A stretch of 64,000 nt of DNA from Defluviitaleaceae bacterium (GTDB lineage: Bacteria > Bacillota > Clostridia > Lachnospirales > WQUN01): the NCBI GenBank assembly GCA_009780585.1, contig WQZS01000002.1, positions 62,001 to 126,000 on the forward strand, read 5' to 3'. This document shows, in pieces, positions 11,405 through 44,285 of the stretch. A program made the translations under genes and the position numbers. Position 1 is the stretch's first letter, and the number at the start of each line of letters is the position of its first letter. The notes under the pieces are model-generated. The model was given only the letters and a program-made list of their open reading frames with translations, was not told the origin of the DNA and did not search any database.

Positions 11405-12544
11405 TTATTGGGGGATAACCAGCCATTGCCCTTCGTAAATCATGTTGCTGGTACCGACGCGGGGGCTGTTGGCTTCGCGGATGCGCCTCCATTGGGTTGC
11501 GTCACCATAGAAGTGCGCGGCAATACCCGCCAGCGTGTCGCCCGAGCGTACCAGGTACACGCCCGCGGCTTCTGCAAGGCTCCCCTGCATGACGGGTTGG
11601 CGCAAGCCCTGCGCGGGCAATGTCAGCACCATGCCCGCTTCCAACGCGCGATTGGCGGGGATAATATCACGGTTGGCATTGAATATACGGTTTACCGACG
11701 CGGCTTGCATGGAGCCGTAATAATTAAACGCGATGCTCCACAGGGTTTCTCCCGCTTGCACGGTGTAACGCAGGTCCCGTTCCGCAACGGGCGCGGGCGG
11801 GATGTTGCGTACCAAGCGTTCCGTGGTTACCAGTTCACCGGCTGCGCCGGGGGCAACGGTAACGGGCGGGGCGGGGGTCGCCTGCGGTACAGGCGTCGGC
11901 GCGGGGGTTGCGGTAGGCGCTGGAGTCGGCGCGGCCGTAGGAGGAGGAGGGGTCGGCGCAGGAGCAGCGTCAACCCCGCCCAATACGATAATAATTGCGG
12001 ATGGCATCACTTGTGCCGGCGACCCGCGATACACAAGGGCGTACACGCCGGGCATGGTAAAGGTCGAATACGAACCGGGCGCCCAAAAATACATACCGTC
12101 GTATTCATCTACCCAATGGGTTGTAAGGTTGGAAACCACGGCGGCTTCATGGGCTGCGCTTGGATACGCCGCTTCAATGCTGAATAAACCGAATTCACCG
12201 TTTCCGATGGTTATCGTAACCGGCTCGGAAGCATGGAAAATACCTGTAATGCTTGCGCCTTCATCGGTCAAGTCGGCAATTTGCCGGGAATTTAAGCCAA
12301 AGCGTTCCAATTGTTGTGCGTAATCGGCGCTCCCCCATGTAGTTATCCAATCATCAAATTCCCATATTTCGTATTCATTAACATTGGTAAATGTCAGCAC
12401 GGGGCCTTGCCAACCGTCGATGGACGCCGTCGTACCGGACGCGGACGCCGATACGGGCACCGCCGTTACCGCTATGATTGCGGCAATAAGTACATACAAA
12501 CCGTTCCTAACCATGCGGGTGATGCTTTTACTTGCCTTGTTCAT
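11405..12544 (-). CDS. Secreted protein with C-terminal LysM pair
   Basis: 379 residues. Signal peptide MNKASKSITRMVRNGLYVLI continuing AAIIAVTAVPVSASAS. Residues about 40-185 are an unrecognised extracellular domain. About 190-240 is a Pro/Thr/Ala linker. LysM 1 ([20 protein letters not shown], about 253-305) and LysM 2 (VYLVRSGDTLAGIAAHFYG, about 326-377) bind peptidoglycan. The LysM cassette is nearly identical to that of the 38585-40372 protein, while the N-terminal domains differ. The start follows AAAGGAGCGG. It sits between the RRNPP regulator and the RCC1-CAP protein. The role is inferred as a non-covalently wall-bound display protein. Confidence 0.88.
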   Translation of the reverse strand: MNKASKSITRMVRNGLYVLIAAIIAVTAVPVSASASGTTASIDGWQGPVLTFTNVNEYEIWEFDDWITTWGSADYAQQLERFGLNSRQIADLTDEGASITGIFHASEPVTITIGNGEFGLFSIEAAYPSAAHEAAVVSNLTTHWVDEYDGMYFWAPGSYSTFTMPGVYALVYRGSPAQVMPSAIIIVLGGVDAAPAPTPPPPTAAPTPAPTATPAPTPVPQATPAPPVTVAPGAAGELVTTERLVRNIPPAPVAERDLRYTVQAGETLWSIAFNYYGSMQAASVNRIFNANRDIIPANRALEAGMVLTLPAQGLRQPVMQGSLAEAAGVYLVRSGDTLAGIAAHFYGDATQWRRIREANSPRVGTSNMIYEGQWLVIPQ

Positions 12545-12728: not shown

Positions 12729-13661
12729 TCACGCGTTGAAGGGTTGGCGCTTGGGGATTGATAAATCCAATGGCGCAATTCTCCTTACGTCTTCGGCAAT
12801 ATGTAATTGGGCGTGCATTAGTGAACCGTAGTACGCTTGGTATAGCAGCTCCGTGATTTCATCCTTATCACCGCCGAGCGACCGCATCGCGAACGCCTTG
12901 TAATATACCAAATAGGGGATGCTGCCGAAGCGTTGTTTTTCCGTGCTTATCCGTATGCCTTCGTTGCATATATCAAGTTGTTCCTTGTATTTTTTCGTTT
13001 CCCCGTAATACCGAGCCAAATGTGTGTACAAAAATGCCAAGTTTACGGCTTTGTCGGTGGAGTTTGATTCGCGTTTGCTTATATTATCCGTCAATTTTTC
13101 CAATATCGTGATGGCTTTGTTCCGGCTGCCCGTTTCAAATGCGATACGCGCAATCATAGCGATAATCTTATGGTCAAAATATCCCAACAGATAAGTGCCC
13201 AACAGCGCGGGTGTAAAGCCGGGTACCGTTATATTTATCGCTTCATTTAAGTACGCTTGCGCGGCGTTATAATTAACGGGTTCCTCGTGCATACACAAGG
13301 CTGCCATTGCAAACAAAAGGTATTGATGGTGTACCCCCCCCCCGAATTCTTTTTGCGCCTTCATAATGCGCACTAAACGAATCATTTTTTTCGTGTTTCT
13401 TGCGTTCATCGCATTGTCAAAATCGGCACGCAGTTCATACCCCTCGAACTCTTCATTTGTCAGCGGGTAACAAAAAAACCGCTGCGCGTCCTGCCCCAAG
13501 CGGTTAAACAACAAATCCAGCTTATCTTTCGGTACGGTTTGCCCCCTTTCGATTAAGGATAGGTTTTCCCTGCTCATGATACCCCGCGCCAATTTTTCCT
13601 GGCTGATGTTTTGCTGCTTACGCAAACGTCTAATCATCTTACCAATGGCGATGAAGTCCAT
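12729..13661 (-). CDS. XRE-HTH/TPR transcription regulator, RRNPP (PlcR/Rgg) type
   Basis: 310 residues. An N-terminal HTH (IRRLRKQQNISQEKLARGIM then SRENLSLIERG, residues about 10-40) is followed by a helical, TPR-like body (HLARYYGETKKYKEQLDICN). This is the layout of RRNPP regulators, which bind secreted-then-imported peptides. It begins 20 nt after the SNF2 stop and could be cotranscribed with it. The next gene downstream encodes a LysM surface protein, as near the paralogous regulator at 42642. Codons for FGGGV contain ten consecutive G (13334-13343 as C on the plus strand), a possible slippage site. No peptide gene was found beside it. Confidence 0.8.
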   Translation of the reverse strand: MDFIAIGKMIRRLRKQQNISQEKLARGIMSRENLSLIERGQTVPKDKLDLLFNRLGQDAQRFFCYPLTNEEFEGYELRADFDNAMNARNTKKMIRLVRIMKAQKEFGGGVHHQYLLFAMAALCMHEEPVNYNAAQAYLNEAINITVPGFTPALLGTYLLGYFDHKIIAMIARIAFETGSRNKAITILEKLTDNISKRESNSTDKAVNLAFLYTHLARYYGETKKYKEQLDICNEGIRISTEKQRFGSIPYLVYYKAFAMRSLGGDKDEITELLYQAYYGSLMHAQLHIAEDVRRIAPLDLSIPKRQPFNA

Positions 13662-37338: not shown

Positions 37339-38553
37339 CTACCCGAACGTGGCGAATTTTTGAGTCCAGTAATACGTCCATTGCGTACCTGCCAAACGAT
37401 GCACACCAACCCCTATATATTTTAAGTTGGCATTGAGGATGTTGGCACGGTGTCCGGGGGAATTCATCCATGCGGTAACCACCGCTTCGGGGGTTTGACG
37501 CCCTGCGGCTACATTTGCGGCGGCATGGCTCCACGAAAGACCCGCTGCCAACATTCTATCAAACGGTGATGAACCGTCAGACCCGGTATGGCTCATAAAA
37601 TCGTTTGTCGCCATATCTATACTGTGGTTGCGTGCCACGGCAGCGAGGGTACTGTCCAACGCCAATGCAGGCACTCCTTGATTAGCGCGTTCGATATTAA
37701 CCAGTTCCAAAACGCGCTGTTCAAAATCATAAGCGTTAAACGGGATAGGTGTTGGCGTGGGTGCGGGTGTCGGGGTGGGTATTGGCGTGGGGGTTGGCGT
37801 AGGTGTTAGTGTGGGCAACGGTGTATGAATGGGTGCAGGCGTAGGTGTCGGGACGGGCGTTGTCGGTTCCGGCGTCGGCGAAGGGGTGGGAGCCGTTATT
37901 CGGGCTTGCACCGTTATGCTGTGCGTTTGGCTTACCGCGCCGCTCAGCCAAAAACCACGGTTGGCATAAACCGCAAACGTTTGTGTCCCCAATACGGCGG
38001 GGGTCACAATGATTTCCCATACTTGCGTTGTGTCATCCCCTCCGGTGCGTACAGCTTGTGGGAACCGCGCGGGATTGCTGTGGCGCACCCATACATTGTT
38101 TACTTCCCCTTCGGTGGTTACCGATAAATGCACGGCACCCGGCAGTCGGGTTATATCAACGTTGCGTATAACCGGGTCGGTCTTGATCGGGGCTGATGTA
38201 TCAACATACAGTTCTTGCATTGACGCGCCCTGTAACCAAAACCCGCGGTTTGCCCATACCTCTACATATTGGCTCCCCGCGTGGGTCGGTGTAAAGACCA
38301 CTTCCCACGTTTGCGAAAGCGCGTCCCCGGTAATGCGTTCGGCTCGGGGCCAGCGCGGCGGGTCGCTGTGCTTTACCCAAACGTTATTGACACCCGTACC
38401 GGTCACAATGGTAAAGCTCACCGTGCCGTCGGCGGCTTCGGTGTTTTCTTCCACACTAATGATGGATAACGGCGCGTTGGCGTAGGCCACTATTGGTAAC
38501 GCGAATAAAATTGCTAAAAAAACCAAAGTGAACAAGACCGTTCTTTTTTTCAT
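37339..38553 (-). CDS. Secreted CAP/SCP-domain protein with tandem beta domains
   Basis: 404 residues. Signal peptide [20 protein letters not shown]. Two homologous beta-rich units of about 90 residues follow: [20 protein letters not shown] ... [13 protein letters not shown] and [20 protein letters not shown] ... [14 protein letters not shown] Pro/Thr linker (about 215-270) leads to a C-terminal CAP domain, starting [20 protein letters not shown], with [13 protein letters not shown] and the typical [23 protein letters not shown] domains bind lipids, peptides or glycans outside the cell; no enzymatic motif is certain. It lies 31 nt after the LysM gene, behind GGGAGG, in the same operon. It is the functional counterpart of the RCC1-CAP protein at 8594. 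Confidence 0.9.
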
Positions 38554-38584: not shown

Positions 38585-40372
38585 TTACGCGCGCGGGATA
38601 ATCAGCCATTGCCCCGCGTAAATTATGTTATTGGTACCGACGCGGGGGCTGTTGGCTTCGCGGATGCGCCCCCATTGGGACGCGTCACCGAAGAAATGCA
38701 ACGCGATGCTTGACAGCGTATCACCCGGGCGCACAAGGTACACACCCGCTGCATCGCCGAGGTTGGCTTGCATAACGGGCTGGCGCAAACCCTGCGCGGG
38801 AAGGGTGAGTACCATGCCCACTTCCAACGCGTTGTTGGCGGGGAGGATATCGCGGTTAGCCGCGGCGATGCGGTTGACCGTTGCGGCTTGCATCGAACCG
38901 TAATAATTAAAGGCGATGCCCCAAAGCGTTTCCCCGGGCTGTACGGTGTAGCGCAAATCCCGTCCCGCCGCGGGCGAGGGGGGTATGACGCTGACCAACC
39001 GTTCGGTAGTGATGATATCGGCGGAAGCGCCGGGGGCTACAATGATGGGCGCGGGGGTAGGCTGCGGTGTGGGTTGCGGTGTGGGAGGAGCGGGAGTCGG
39101 CGCAGGAGCGGCGCCGACCCCACCCTGTACGGAAAATGGATAAGTGATTGTTAAGGGTTCGCTTGTGCTTGGGCTGCGTGTGATAAAATCACCGTTTATA
39201 GATATTGATACTTGATATTCCTGCGTTTCCCAGTCCAGCGGGACAGGTTCCCAATGTTCGTTCATGGTTTCCAATCTAATTGTATACAAGTCGATACGGT
39301 TTTCTTCAACCCGTCTGGAACCGATTGAAGACCAAAACCATTCGTCAGGATTGAAATTTGAGGGAACATACCTTGCGATACCTACGAAATAGCTTGTCGC
39401 TCCCGGCACCACGTCCCACGATAATGTCGAATCGGTCAGCGTCAATCCCGTGGCTTGGGGCATGGGACCCAAATACCTTGAATCAAATTCCAATGTATTA
39501 CTTAATGGGGACGATTGGTCACCATCGGATACAGAAGCCTGGATACGGTGCGTTCCGGCAGGAAGGGCATTAAATGTCAGGGTCCAATATACACGGTACG
39601 CGTCATATTCATTATGATTATGCATGGGGTGATTCCACCGGGTATGGAATTCTTCGCCGTTTACGTACAGGGTAACGCTTTCGATAATTGACTCGGACCT
39701 TATGGCAAACCCCGACAATTCAATTCCCATTGCTTCATAGGTTTCATACGTTAGCGTCGGTGCGGGCGGCGGCGGCGGTATTTCCATATTTGCGCCGATC
39801 TTGTTCATTTCGGTGGCTATATTAAACGGTCTGGCGGGAATCATGTACAATTGTTGGCTGGCCCCCCCCTGATTCCATAATTCCCCTATGTTTATATTTC
39901 CGCTTTCGGGCTGTTGCGCAAATACATCGAAGCTGCCGTCGGGCATAATTTGAGCAAACATGACATCGCCGCCATAGTGCCCCTGTCCGGTTTCTTCAAT
40001 CATCATGATACTTATTACGTAAGCGATTGGTTTCCCTCCAAACCAAATTTCGCTCGTTACATGGGACATGACGTGCTGCCATCCCCGCGCATCCGTTCTG
40101 TTAAGATTGGGATGCTCGCTTAAACGGTGTATAACGCCATTATGGTAGGAATAAACTTCCCCGGCGCCATGTCTTCCGACCAACAATTCCGGTGTACCCC
40201 TGCCGCCCGTGTCCATCAGGGTAAAATTATATTCCCGCCCGTAATCCTCCAGGATTTCCAGGTACGCGGCTACCCATGAGGGCACACCTGTATTCGTGTT
40301 TGCGGATACGGTTACCGTAACCACACCCAAAGTCATTACCGCTGCCAGCAGCAGGGCTGTCATTTTCTTCAT
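38585..40372 (-). CDS. Secreted protein with C-terminal LysM pair (paralogue module)
   Basis: 595 residues. Signal peptide [20 protein letters not shown]. Residues about 30-200 resemble a lipoprotein-like sensor fold of unknown type. About 205-400 contain Ig/fibronectin-like beta segments ([36 protein letters not shown]). A Pro linker leads to LysM 1 ([20 protein letters not shown], about 467) and LysM 2 ([19 protein letters not shown], about 542). These are nearly identical to the 11405-12544 protein, unlike the N-terminus. Start ATG 40372 with GGGAGG upstream. Its promoter carries the 34-bp element shared with the 42490 operon, so it is inferred to belong to the RRNPP regulon. Confidence 0.88.
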
Positions 40373-40419: not shown

Positions 40420-40475
40420 ATTATAGCGACATTTTTATATATAAAAGTAGACATTTTTTGCAACTTTCCTTATTT
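40420..40475 (-). promoter_or_regulatory. Activator-type promoter A with shared 34-bp element
   Basis: On the minus strand, TATAAT (40425-40420) is preceded by 16 bp and then a 34-bp block (40475-40442) containing GGAAAGTTGCAAAAAATGTC. The same block sits at the same distance from TATAAT at promoter B (42531-42586). No good -35 exists, so an activator covering the -35 is expected. A half-repeat AAAAATGTC recurs between block and -10. Confidence 0.8.
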
Positions 40476-40532: not shown

Positions 40533-40561
40533 TTGACATTTTTTTCTACTATTGCTATATT
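40533..40561 (+). promoter_or_regulatory. Plus-strand promoter facing the peptide gene
   Basis: TTGACA (40533-40538), 17-bp spacer, TATATT (40556-40561), a near-consensus sigma-A promoter. Its transcript would run antisense through the terminator and the small peptide gene (40634-40771), and might continue into the gene at 40918. Confidence 0.7.
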
Positions 40562-40575
40562 ATGGGTGCAAAACA

Positions 40576-40614
40576 AAACTCGCCACGCTGGTTGTGTTCC
40601 TTCGTGACGAGTTT
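40576..40614 (-). terminator. Terminator of the small peptide gene
   Basis: On the minus strand AAACTCGTCACG (40614-40603) pairs with CGTGGCGAGTTT (40587-40576), 12 bp with one T-G pair, followed by TGTTTTG. It begins 20 nt after the peptide stop codon. Confidence 0.75.
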
Positions 40615-40633
40615 GGCTTGGAACTACAGCATT

Positions 40634-40771
40634 TTAAAGAATGGGTTCTTCTTGCCAAATGCTGTTTGTTTCTGTTAGTGCTTTTTCTGTGTTGACAACT
40701 GCGTCGCACCATGTCACACTTGCATTAAATGCCAGCATGACTGCCATGAGGATGGATAAAATCTTTTGCAT
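40634..40771 (-). CDS. Small secreted peptide precursor, candidate quorum-sensing pheromone
   Basis: 45 codons. The N-terminus MQKILSILMAVMLAFNASVT is a short Sec-type signal (lysine, then a hydrophobic core), followed by a polar tail ending TETNSIWQEEPIL. An AAGGTGG ribosome-binding site precedes the ATG and an intrinsic terminator follows the stop, so this is a complete gene unit. A PlcR-like RRNPP regulator is encoded 1.9 kb away, and the LysM/CAP operon downstream carries the shared promoter element. PapR-type pheromone precursors are about 48 residues with the same layout, the active peptide being the C-terminal residues. Upstream are a TATGAT -10 and three direct repeats. No homologue is recalled; function is inferred. 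Confidence 0.6.
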   Translation of the reverse strand: MQKILSILMAVMLAFNASVTWCDAVVNTEKALTETNSIWQEEPIL

Positions 40772-40834
40772 CCTCACCACCACCTTTCTTAAGATTACGC
40801 AGCGGGTACAGCCGCCGCGACATCGAAAGAATAA

Positions 40835-40917: not shown

Positions 40918-41373
40918 ATGGAATTGACCAAAGTCACTATCAGCAGATTTGCACAAGAGCTTCACCCTTATTTTTCACGCGGGAAAATACCGGCGGATTT
41001 TATGGTGATGCTAACAAACGGAATCATGACTAGACCGGGCGATACAAAGAACAGAGCAGCCGTCAGAAAAGGTGAAGATCCCGATTATTTAAATCCGATT
41101 AAAAACAAGGGACAAGATTATCGCCGCCAATTTTTTACCGATGATCGCACTATTCCCGCAACCGATATAACGGAAATTTTGGGACGCCTTGATAAACAAA
41201 GATTTGGGACATTCATCTCAAAATACCCAATCGATGTGCGTTTAAAGCTTGTGGATATCTTGAAAAGTTTTGAGGTCAAGTTAGTAAACATCGAGAATGT
41301 CGCGGTTAAATGCGCGGAATTTTTCGAAGTCGTACTCATAAGCGAACTCCAGCGAAAACGAGGTAATGTTTAA
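40918..41373 (+). CDS. Protein of unknown function
   Basis: 151 residues with no recognised family. MELTKVTISRFAQELHPYFS is followed by a polar, probably alpha-helical protein without signal peptide or membrane segment. FTDDRTIPATDITEILGRLD and the hydrophobic C-terminal helix NVAVKCAEFFEVVLISELQR suggest a small cytosolic domain. AAGGAGG seven bases before the ATG gives a very strong ribosome-binding site. It ends 4 bp inside the 3' end of the minus-strand gene at 41370. Its only obvious upstream promoter is the plus-strand one at 40533. Lower G+C than the core genes suggests accessory origin. Confidence 0.6.
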   Translation: MELTKVTISRFAQELHPYFSRGKIPADFMVMLTNGIMTRPGDTKNRAAVRKGEDPDYLNPIKNKGQDYRRQFFTDDRTIPATDITEILGRLDKQRFGTFISKYPIDVRLKLVDILKSFEVKLVNIENVAVKCAEFFEVVLISELQRKRGNV

Positions 41374-41783
41374 TTACTTAAAAAAGCTATATGTTTACGA
41401 AGTTGCAAAACCAAGGTTTTTATTGAATCGTCGTGTTTAGATATTGGAACACGAAATATACCCTTCATCGTAGTGATTTCCAAAAACCGACGAACGGAAA
41501 ATAAAAACGTAAAACACAAAATACCCACCACGGCTACAACCGCGATGGGTATTGTTGTTGGAAGGTGTTTATAATAATCCATTCCCAAAACCATTAAACC
41601 GCAACATATTAAACTCATGTACATAACTTTTTTGGAACGGCGTTTAACAAACTCGACGGCAAGCACATCGCCGTAGTTTACTACGGCTTCGCCGGTTGAC
41701 TTTGTAATGAAGCCGTTGTTGACAGTAAAATGCCCTTCTTTGATAATAAAACATCTGTCAAACAATTCAATTTTTACGGTCAT
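41370..41783 (-). CDS. Small membrane protein, regulon partner of the zinc-ribbon protein
   Basis: 137 residues. The start at 41783 forms an ATGA overlap with the upstream stop, so translation is coupled; a longer frame exists but lies inside the neighbour. Two adjacent membrane helices (KVMYMSLICCGLMVLGMDYY and TTIPIAVVAVVGILCFTFLF) are flanked by soluble segments (MTVKIELFDRCFIIKEGHFT and the C-terminal KTLVLQLRKHIAFLSN). The pattern recalls bacterial PH-like membrane proteins, but I do not recognise a family. It is in one operon with 41780-42490 under promoter B. Confidence 0.6.
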   Translation of the reverse strand: MTVKIELFDRCFIIKEGHFTVNNGFITKSTGEAVVNYGDVLAVEFVKRRSKKVMYMSLICCGLMVLGMDYYKHLPTTIPIAVVAVVGILCFTFLFSVRRFLEITTMKGIFRVPISKHDDSIKTLVLQLRKHIAFLSN

Positions 41784-42490
41784 TCCAGTCCGTTCCCGCA
41801 TTTTACACAGAACAATGAAGGTGGCTTGTTTTGGTGTCCGCAATTTTGGCAAAGTATATGATTTCCGCTTGGCGCACTTTCACGGTAAACAATGTAATCA
41901 TTTGCGTTACCTGACGGGTTATGGATTTTATCTTTAATTAGGTGAATGTTGCGAATAAAATCATCCTGTTCATGGCTAAGTATCCACTTGACATCAAACG
42001 CTATGTTCCCTCCGGCATATTCGATGCAAAGTAACGTTTTACGGAAGAATAAGTATAATGCGACGAACACGCCTGCTAATAGTAAAAAAATAAAAAAACC
42101 TCCAATGCCCAAACCCGTAACACTGGTACCGGTGACTTCTCCCCGACGTCCGTAATTTTCTTCCACCGTTAAAAATATCCAAAAAAATCCAAGGATTGCG
42201 ATTAGGCAAGCCCATACAATAAATTTCAACGGATTGTAAAATCTGTAGCCTACACCCGTTACATCGCGTACATTTAGTATTTTTTGCTCTTTTATCGCCG
42301 AAAGGCTCCCCTTGGAATTGAACGAAAATACATTACCGGAAAAATAAATCCTCATATCCGTTACTGTTGCCCCCGCTTTCGATAAAACACCCCCCGTTAA
42401 AAAATTGGCGATATAACCCGAACCGATGGTAGTGACTTGCTTTTCGTCGGGATTACAAAACCTGCCACCGTACTTGCTTCTTGCTTCCAT
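41780..42490 (-). CDS. Membrane protein with C-terminal zinc ribbon
   Basis: 236 residues from ATG 42490, behind AAAGGAG; the promoter -10 at 42536-42531 rules out starts further upstream. A soluble N-terminal part (QVTTIGSGYIANFLTGGVLS, MRIYFSGNVFSFN) resembles a PH-like domain. Two membrane helices follow (LKFIVWACLIAILGFFWIFL and GGFFIFLLLAGVFVALYLFF), and the protein ends in a zinc ribbon, CQNCGHQNKPPSLFCVKCG (two CxxC pairs). Function is unknown. Its promoter shares the 34-bp block with the LysM/CAP operon, so it should respond to the adjacent divergent RRNPP regulator. Confidence 0.7.
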   Translation of the reverse strand: MEARSKYGGRFCNPDEKQVTTIGSGYIANFLTGGVLSKAGATVTDMRIYFSGNVFSFNSKGSLSAIKEQKILNVRDVTGVGYRFYNPLKFIVWACLIAILGFFWIFLTVEENYGRRGEVTGTSVTGLGIGGFFIFLLLAGVFVALYLFFRKTLLCIEYAGGNIAFDVKWILSHEQDDFIRNIHLIKDKIHNPSGNANDYIVYRESAPSGNHILCQNCGHQNKPPSLFCVKCGNGLE

Positions 42491-42530: not shown

Positions 42531-42618
42531 ATTATAATTGTATTTTTTATGTTAAAAGTAGACATTTTTTGCAACTTTCCTTATTTTTATAGACATTTTT
42601 TGCAACCGTTATTATTAT
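42531..42618. promoter_or_regulatory. Divergent promoter region B with element copies
   Basis: Minus strand: TATAAT (42536-42531), 16 bp, then the 34-bp block (42586-42553) identical to promoter A. A further copy of its core, TAGACATTTTTTGCAAC, lies at 42590-42606, 31 bp from the first. On the plus strand that copy supplies a -35 (TAGACA 42590-42595) with 17-bp spacing to TATTAT (42613-42618), the likely promoter of the regulator gene at 42642. The regulator therefore probably controls itself and the divergent operon. Confidence 0.8.
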
Positions 42619-42641: not shown

Positions 42642-43562
42642 ATGCCGCTGTATAACGCTGCGACTATTGTTAAGGAACTGCGCAAGAGCAAGGGCTTGAC
42701 ACAAGAAAACCTATGTGCGGGTATTTGTTCAAAGGATGAAATCTCGCGCATAGAGAGAAATATCCGACGCCCCTGCTGGTTTGTTTTTGAAAAAATAATG
42801 CAACGTTTAGGGGAAGACCCACAAAAATACTTTACGTCTATAGCATCCATAGAAGAAATGAAAATTATTGATATAAAGAATAATATACAGTTACTCCTTC
42901 GTAAAAAAACCGAAGGTGCATTAAAGGAAGCAGAGGTTAAATTAGAAGAATTGTCTGTGCGTGGAGGGGAATACAACCTAATTAAACAGCATGTCATGTA
43001 TGTAAAATCTGTCCTCGCTTTTTACCGCAAAGATTTCAACGCCATGCTCGCATACGCGAAAGCTGCCGTCATACTAACCCGCCACGACTTTAATGAAAAC
43101 AAAACATTTATGCTGTTAACGATGGATGAAATAATCGCTATTAATAATATTGCTTTGGCATATTTTAATTTGGAATTCATTGACAAAGCCGTAGACATTT
43201 TATTAAATTTAAAATCATCATTAGATATACAACATACCGTGGAAGAAGAAAGAACAAAGATATACATACAGGTTACGTACAATTTAACAAAGTACCTGGG
43301 TTTGTTAAAACGGTACGACGAATCCATCCTGCATTGCGACGAGGGGATACATTTATGTGAAATCCATTGGCAGTATTATTATCTCCCTTTGTTATTAGGT
43401 AACAAAATGTACGCTTGTTTCTATTTAAACAGGCAAGAAGAAGGAAAAAACCTTGCAAAACGAGTCATTGCCCTCTTTGAAGGCTTAGAGAAACACAAAG
43501 AACTCGCTATGTTAGAAAAGTTTTTACGTGATGAATTTGGGTTAGAAAGAGAAACACTTTAA
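42642..43562 (+). CDS. XRE-HTH/TPR transcription regulator, PlcR-like (RRNPP)
   Basis: 306 residues. The HTH covers about residues 6-40 (IVKELRKSKGLTQENLCAGI then CSKDEISRIERN). The helical TPR-type body (YNLTKYLGLLKRYDESILHC, CFYLNRQEEGKNLAKRVIAL) should bind a small imported peptide. It is similar in plan to the regulator at 12729. The chosen ATG at 42642 fits AAAGGGTG and the mapped promoter; a GTG at 42633 is less likely. The adjacent operator-like repeats and the peptide gene 1.9 kb away support a quorum-sensing role. The target promoters are inferred, not shown. Confidence 0.82.
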   Translation: MPLYNAATIVKELRKSKGLTQENLCAGICSKDEISRIERNIRRPCWFVFEKIMQRLGEDPQKYFTSIASIEEMKIIDIKNNIQLLLRKKTEGALKEAEVKLEELSVRGGEYNLIKQHVMYVKSVLAFYRKDFNAMLAYAKAAVILTRHDFNENKTFMLLTMDEIIAINNIALAYFNLEFIDKAVDILLNLKSSLDIQHTVEEERTKIYIQVTYNLTKYLGLLKRYDESILHCDEGIHLCEIHWQYYYLPLLLGNKMYACFYLNRQEEGKNLAKRVIALFEGLEKHKELAMLEKFLRDEFGLERETL

Positions 43563-43576
43563 ATATTAACAGCTTT

Positions 43577-43996
43577 TTATATACTTACGTCTGTGTCCAA
43601 TCCAAAAATAGCAAGCCCGTCAATGTTTTCATAATCCTTTATATTGTTCGTAACGATGGCACAATCGTGGGCAAGGCAAAATGCCGCGATGAGTATGTCC
43701 AATTCCCCAACGGTAAAACCTTTGCGGTACAATTCTTTATATACATCAATTGCCCGTTCCCAAATCACAGCGGTTATTTCGATAATGGGGCAGCGTTGGG
43801 TGAGCAGTTCATACACCTGTTCTTTACGATGTGAAGGTCTTTGCATTAGCTTAAAACCGCGGCGTACTTCGTAATCCACCATTTTTGGTATATATAACTT
43901 GTGGTTATTGGCAAGTGCGTTGTCTATATTGTTAACAGAGGTCGTTTCATTTTTCAAATAACGGATAATAATATTTGTATCCAACGCGTATTTCAT
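43577..43996 (-). CDS. PIN-domain (VapC-like) toxin
   Basis: 139 residues from MKYALDTNIIIRYLKN (ATG 43996). PIN ribonuclease acidic residues are visible: D in ALDTNI, E in VDYEVRRG, D in GELDILIAAFCLA, and a C-terminal aspartate in TNNIKDYENI. VapC-type toxins cut tRNA or rRNA with Mg2+. The preceding gene ends 16 nt upstream and encodes the probable antitoxin. It faces the RRNPP regulator tail to tail across 14 bp. It appears intact. Confidence 0.88.
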   Translation of the reverse strand: MKYALDTNIIIRYLKNETTSVNNIDNALANNHKLYIPKMVDYEVRRGFKLMQRPSHRKEQVYELLTQRCPIIEITAVIWERAIDVYKELYRKGFTVGELDILIAAFCLAHDCAIVTNNIKDYENIDGLAIFGLDTDVSI

Positions 43997-44012
43997 ATAT
44001 TTGCTTGCCTCC

Positions 44013-44285
44013 TCAGTTGTCAAAATTTATGGGTGGGCGCATATCTTTTGAACGCCGAAAATAAACATCCGGCAATTCTTCGTTCATCGAAAGCGCAAGG
44101 GCTTCTTTTATACGTTTATGCCATGCATAAAAATCGTCATCTTCTTGCGTGATTTCATCTACATTTTGCGATTGATTTATCACAAAATCAAGAATGGTGA
44201 CGATAGCGTGGCTGCCCTTCGGAACAACCACTGGTTCAAAAGGTATAAATGCACCTTCATTATAAAACGCTCTGACTGCTTGCAT
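44013..44285 (-). CDS. Antitoxin of the PIN-toxin module
   Basis: 90 residues. MQAVRAFYNEGAFIPFEPVV then VPKGSHAIVTILDF resembles the DUF104 (AF2212/PG0164) antitoxin family, which forms a small beta barrel. The C-terminal half is acidic and flexible (EITQEDDDFYAWHKRIKEAL) and probably wraps the PIN toxin. GGAG eight bases before the ATG is the ribosome-binding site. Position directly upstream of the toxin gene supports the assignment; the two form one operon. Confidence 0.75.
   Translation of the reverse strand: MQAVRAFYNEGAFIPFEPVVVPKGSHAIVTILDFVINQSQNVDEITQEDDDFYAWHKRIKEALALSMNEELPDVYFRRSKDMRPPINFDN

Follow-up and report, generated by a model that had tools for sequence, protein, structure and literature searches.

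Systems of the RRNPP type combine a receptor of about 250-500 residues, built of HTH and TPR parts and related to PlcR, Rgg or NprR, with a directly neighbouring gene for a short precursor that bears an N-terminal export signal and whose processed product binds the receptor and alters its activity, and with an oligopeptide permease for re-import. In Bacillales systems papR lies immediately downstream of plcR (PMC9765709) and itself belongs to the PlcR regulon (PMC2464732), whose operator, the PlcR box, is the palindrome TATGNAN4TNCATA (PMC3519770). PlcRa of B. cereus is a PlcR paralog activated by a C-terminal-region heptapeptide, and it has sister paralogs with no peptide gene at all (PMC3519770). 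A different layout is found in the Rgg-SHP group III systems of streptococci, where the peptide gene is downstream of, and convergent to, the regulator gene (PMC3679016). Within the Clostridia, the RRNPP regulators of the Qsr-Qsp systems of Clostridium acetobutylicum have unannotated short secreted peptides downstream (PMC7376267), and large-scale catalogues exist (PMC10075063).

The window considered here, a stretch of 64,000 nucleotides from a Defluviitaleaceae bacterium (contig WQZS01000002.1), carries a locus that is a variant of RRNPP and no new class. It resembles PlcR-PapR of the Bacillus cereus group in its HTH and TPR receptor, for which PlcR is the best PDB match by profile and by fold, in its short Sec-type precursor, in boxes placed ahead of sigma-A -10 elements, and in putative targets that, like most of the PlcR regulon (PMC2464732), are secreted or cell-envelope proteins. 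Unlike papR, the peptide gene is convergent to the remnant of a regulator gene and has no box, and the locus departs from PlcR-PapR proper in that the shared box is TTGCAAAAAATGTCTA, the PlcR palindrome having been sought as the box and not found, and in that a PIN/AF2212-like pair, with no peptide ORF, follows the intact regulator. Shared with PlcRa-PapRa are a receptor related to PlcR, which here would likewise respond to a C-terminal peptide, and sister paralogs that lack a peptide gene, whereas papRa is upstream of its receptor and a deleted receptor is not reported there. The convergent layout is that of Rgg-SHP group III, yet the SHPs have 22-26 residues (loci tabulated in PMC3679016) and are exported by PptAB, in contrast to the Sec-like precursors of 43-65 residues and the PlcR-like receptors of the present family. 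A receptor remnant or split pair is not described in the sections of the Qsr-Qsp report drawn on here, and a limited literature search found no published description of a pheromone gene beside its receptor's remnant. The features of the locus are as follows.

37339-38553, minus strand: putative target in the same operon as the LysM gene, a secreted CAP-domain (YkwD-like) protein of 404 aa (Pfam CAP; TIGR02909 below cut-off)
38585-40372, minus strand: putative target, a secreted protein of 595 aa with two LysM domains (Pfam LysM; box 1 upstream)
40448-40463, minus strand: box 1, TTGCAAAAAATGTCTA, 5' of the 40372 operon (exact three-copy box; -10 TATAAT at 40425-40420, offset 22)
40533-40561, plus strand: TTGACA-17-TATATT and a decayed box, probably the promoter of the lost regulator (promoter scan, 11/12)
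40571-40619, minus strand: intrinsic terminator hairpin of the peptide gene, inside the regulator remnant (folding energy, then UUUUGUUUU)
40576-40637, plus strand: remnant, convergent to the peptide gene, of the 3' end of a deleted RNPP regulator (12/16 identity, codon comparison, shuffles)
40634-40771, minus strand: secreted-peptide precursor ORF, candidate pheromone (translation; like ORFs convergent to related regulators)
40772-40791, minus strand: Shine-Dalgarno-like sequence TAAGAAAGGTGGTGGTGAGG 5' of the ATG (sequence)
40918-41373, plus strand: 151-aa protein of no assigned family and with no box, between peptide and regulator (ORF list, Pfam/NCBIfam)
41370-41852, minus strand: putative target in the same operon as the zinc-ribbon gene, a small membrane protein of no assigned family (ORF list; weak below-cut-off Pfam match)
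41780-42490, minus strand: putative target, a zinc-ribbon membrane protein of 236 aa (Pfam zinc ribbon just below cut-off; box 2 upstream)
42559-42574, minus strand: box 2, 5' of the 42490 operon (exact three-copy box; -10 TATAAT at 42536-42531, offset 22)
42590-42605, minus strand: box 3, which overlaps the -35 in the promoter of the 42642 regulator (exact three-copy box; promoter scan)
42642-43562, plus strand: intact PlcR-like RNPP regulator, 306 aa, HTH and TPR (Pfam, PlcR profile, AlphaFold model)

An initial annotation of this DNA had claimed a Sec-type precursor gene on the minus strand with its own ribosome-binding site and terminator, and both parts of that claim hold. Read from the letters of the window, the 45-codon ORF at 40634-40771(-), so small that it is easily overlooked, translates as MQKILSILMAVMLAFNASVTWCDAVVNTEKALTETNSIWQEEPIL followed by a stop, with a basic N-terminus and an 11-residue hydrophobic core (mean 2.8, Kyte-Doolittle). 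Hydropathy was the means by which the leader was assessed as Sec-type, and the 45-residue product thus has the make-up of a short precursor with an N-terminal export signal; its mature part probably lies within TETNSIWQEEPIL. The Shine-Dalgarno-like TAAGAAAGGTGGTGGTGAGG precedes the ATG, and a GTG at 40783 is a possible alternative start. Searches of Pfam and NCBIfam returned no family match for the peptide, and no ortholog was found in 60 relatives (best other match E 0.04). The terminator sits just beyond the ORF, where the stem at 40619-40571(-) has a folding energy of -22.5 kcal/mol (z -3.86; none of 200 shuffles equally stable); a simple terminator scan made no call there because the loop is long.

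The regulator at 42642 had been called PlcR-like, and it proves to be a full-length protein of that kind. Pfam recognises HTH_3 (E 1e-5) and RNPP_C (25.3 bits, slightly under the cut-off of 26.5), and its 306 residues fall within the size and relationship expected of an RRNPP receptor. A profile of eight relatives matched PlcR (2QFC) in a PDB search over nearly the full length (E 9.9e-17), the other PDB matches of this profile being weak and confined to the HTH, which leaves PlcR the sole strong PDB relative. For the AlphaFold model (pLDDT 88.6) the PDB structures ranked highest are those of PlcR-PapR, 3u3w and 2qfc, and next come ComR, Rgg2 and Rap. Residues N168 and N214 align with N159 and N201 of PlcR, both Asn being kept, and we take these two PlcR residues to be contacts of PapR. 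In a docking model of PlcRa, N205 and K208 hold the peptide backbone (PMC3519770). For re-import, the genome encodes three oligopeptide-binding proteins (SBP_bac_5, above cut-off) as candidate parts of a permease. No close ortholog of the regulator was found in 38 genomes of the family (best 45%).

Directly downstream of the regulator and convergent to it, where a peptide gene would be expected, lie a PIN-domain (VapC-like) gene and its AF2212-like partner (43577-44285(-)). The sole candidate ORF for a convergent peptide of the regulator's own is the tail of the PIN gene and was rejected. Elsewhere in the window, a second RNPP regulator (12729-13661(-)), also lacking a convergent peptide, adjoins a gene for a LysM protein (11405-12544(-)) that resembles the 40372 target.

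The evidence that the peptide gene once had a closer partner lies on the opposite strand at its 3' end. The 16 codons at 40576-40623(+) read KLATLVVFLRDEFGLE, of which 12 residues are identical to the C-terminus of the 42642 regulator, ELAMLEKFLRDEFGLERETL; the regulator itself aside, no other frame among the window's 127,904 gets beyond 7/16. At the codon level the two tails show 8 synonymous and 4 nonsynonymous differences, with the third position changed in nine of the 16. With the comparison confined to this position and to the last 40 residues of the regulator, none of 100,000 shuffles reached the remnant's score. The unconstrained score, set against Markov-resampled sequence, was only moderately significant (2/300); the confined shuffles and the codon comparison, not the unconstrained score, decided the call. 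A TAA at 40635-40637(+), one base out of the remnant's frame, overlaps the stop of the peptide gene, and the same 4-base overlap of stops occurs in six relatives. Upstream, 27 nt of the region 40533-40561 match box 1 with its flank at 70% identity. We read this arrangement as a second regulator gene lost between its promoter and its last 20 or so codons, the tail of which now holds the terminator of the peptide gene. The synonymous changes imply that selection acted on the protein of the deleted regulator while its gene still existed, and that this gene had not been newly copied from the one at 42642; because third positions differ, a recent duplication of the entire regulator was rejected.

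The proposal that the 40372 and 42490 operons form one regulon gains support from the 16-bp box TTGCAAAAAATGTCTA, of which the 3.1-Mb genome holds exactly three mismatch-free copies, all at this locus and two of them ahead of these putative targets. Allowing up to one mismatch in a 15-base core adds only two scattered sites in the whole genome. Boxes 1 and 2 are each followed at offset 22 by a perfect TATAAT, and the hexamer that immediately adjoins them on this side, ACTTTT, makes a poor -35. Box 3 extends over the TAGACA in the promoter of the regulator itself (TAGACA-17-TATTAT, 42590-42618(+)). A related genome, G012, has TTGCAAAAAACGTCTA followed in most copies by a -10 at offset 23 or 24. 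With the two species pooled, a -10 lies at offset 21-24 for 8 of the 11 boxes, where shuffles give a mean of 1.6. The position of the box just 5' of a weak -35 suggests activation. Single-mismatch boxes in several other relatives lack a -10 at fixed distance and are probably due to chance. In G012 itself about eight promoters carry TTGCAAAAAACGTCTA and make up an apparent regulon, the motif mostly keeping a set distance to the -10 (loci L033, L106, L122-L125); the closest regulator homolog in this genome has no evident peptide gene.

Whether the convergent layout is general was judged from the regulators of the window's genome and its relatives, the named ones being MAGs of Clostridiales and Defluviitaleaceae, several of which, by their isolate codes, would come from termite guts. 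A narrow regulator alignment served for the profile scan of genome contigs, a broad one having been discarded, and 73 distinct RNPP-type regulators were collected, 71 of them with enough flank to be scored for an ORF of 30-80 aa with a Shine-Dalgarno sequence and a strong hydrophobic leader, convergent at the regulator's 3' end. Such ORFs (43-65 aa) stand at 27 of the 71 regulators and at 1 of 133 control genes (Fisher p 1.8e-13, an indicative value, as thresholds were set after the first examples had been seen and the regulators are related rather than independent). The two stops mostly lie -8 to +20 nt apart. Groups of these peptides have short cores in common, as would be expected of mature signals; for example, two paralogs from a single genome share VAYGMDY, and PFxI recurs in five of the peptides. 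The nearest paralog within the genome, C22, is 45% identical to the 42642 regulator and belongs to a complete module, in which the regulator is accompanied by two box-like sites, by a divergent gene whose product seems to have a secretion leader, and by a convergent secreted peptide of 52 aa. A gene for an oligopeptide-binding protein (L136, G000:C22:24269-25261) lies about 6 kb from this module. The layout offers a simple rule for finding such peptide genes.

Because peptide genes of this family usually face the 3' end of their receptor gene, and a regulator remnant lies exactly there, the ORF at 40634-40771 very probably encodes the precursor of a pheromone whose neighbouring receptor has been lost. 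The peptide-regulator link drawn in the initial annotation had rested on proximity alone, the remnant having been overlooked; it now has independent support from the convergent-pairing rule and the homologous tail in place, with the amendment that the original receptor was probably the deleted neighbour and not the 42642 regulator. Only the remnant directly adjoins the precursor gene. The 42642 regulator likely reads the peptide now, which is the simplest account given that it has the same box and no convergent peptide of its own.

The ORF, its terminator, the boxes and their geometry, the receptor family, the remnant and the family-wide pairing are all matters of sequence, and from them we infer that the peptide is expressed, processed and bound by a receptor, and that the outcome is activation rather than repression. 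The precursor would be exported by Sec and cut to a short C-terminal peptide, which would return through an oligopeptide permease. Its original receptor would have been a PlcR-like regulator directly adjoining the peptide gene in convergent orientation, later deleted down to its promoter and last 20 or so codons, and the 42642 paralog, which uses this box too and comes without its own peptide gene, would sense the peptide in its place. Bound to it, the paralog would activate the LysM/CAP and zinc-ribbon membrane-protein operons from boxes 1 and 2 and control its own promoter through box 3. Taken as a whole, an RRNPP-type pheromone whose adjacent receptor was deleted and which the 42642 paralog most likely senses is a reading we consider moderately probable. 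More tentative is the idea that a paralogous receptor 2 kb away with the same box took over the pheromone, so that the locus would show a natural receptor swap in mid-course, in which the pheromone gene draws its terminator from the tail of the dead receptor. A signal, the tail of a deleted receptor and an intact paralog sharing its operator occur together here, which makes the exchange of partners between RRNPP signals and receptors directly testable.

Several observations count against this reading. The 42642 regulator is 1.9 kb from the peptide ORF with other genes between, although such pairs normally adjoin; the peptide gene has no box 5' of it; about 60% of related regulators, that at 42642 included, have no convergent peptide; and most third positions are changed between the remnant and the intact tail, which makes the deleted receptor no recent copy, and its signal may have been another peptide. 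Together with the deletion of the peptide's receptor and its lack of a conserved ortholog in the 60 relatives, this distance and the synonymous divergence of the tails are also what an orphan pheromone in decay would leave, the remainder of a deleted pair next to a peptide-less paralog that does not sense it. We think that rather unlikely: the ORF, Shine-Dalgarno sequence and terminator are all intact, the box next to the promoter of the deleted regulator is the one that the intact regulator's promoter carries, and the intact regulator has no other peptide.

Besides the 42642 regulator the genome encodes at least six of the RNPP type, and several of these lack a convergent peptide. The signal might be meant for one of them, such as the 45% identical C22, or for other cells only, as in cheating or cross-talk. 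This we judge improbable, as C22 is paired with a convergent peptide of its own whose C-terminus differs, and the box common to the remnant's promoter and the intact regulator favours a local partner. The absence of a family match and of an ortholog would equally suit a secreted peptide unrelated to signalling, for instance an antimicrobial, or a chance ORF, for which there is just as little room: the ORF is convergent to a regulator remnant, a position strongly enriched for such ORFs in the family, and it has both a terminator and a Shine-Dalgarno sequence.

Beyond the locus itself, this uncultured Clostridia family, probably largely of termite guts, holds many pheromone-receptor-like pairs in one standard convergent layout, double-length receptors included. 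The latter are regulators of 570-690 aa in which the PlcR-like profile matches twice, head to tail, as in fused tandem receptors; two lie in one genome (L005:1492-3405(-) and L006:1390-3303(-)), and further loci are L037, L038, L079, L082, L085, L086, L088, L091, L097, L100, L102, L103 and L104. A convergent secreted-peptide ORF also accompanies 12 of the 22 double-length regulators. The peptides at L006, L038, L088, L091 and L102 have the PFxI core, mostly as (I/V)TPFxIG or close variants, which makes this core a candidate for a mature pheromone conserved across genera. In L005, Pfam recognises the HTH and RNPP_C in the second half only.
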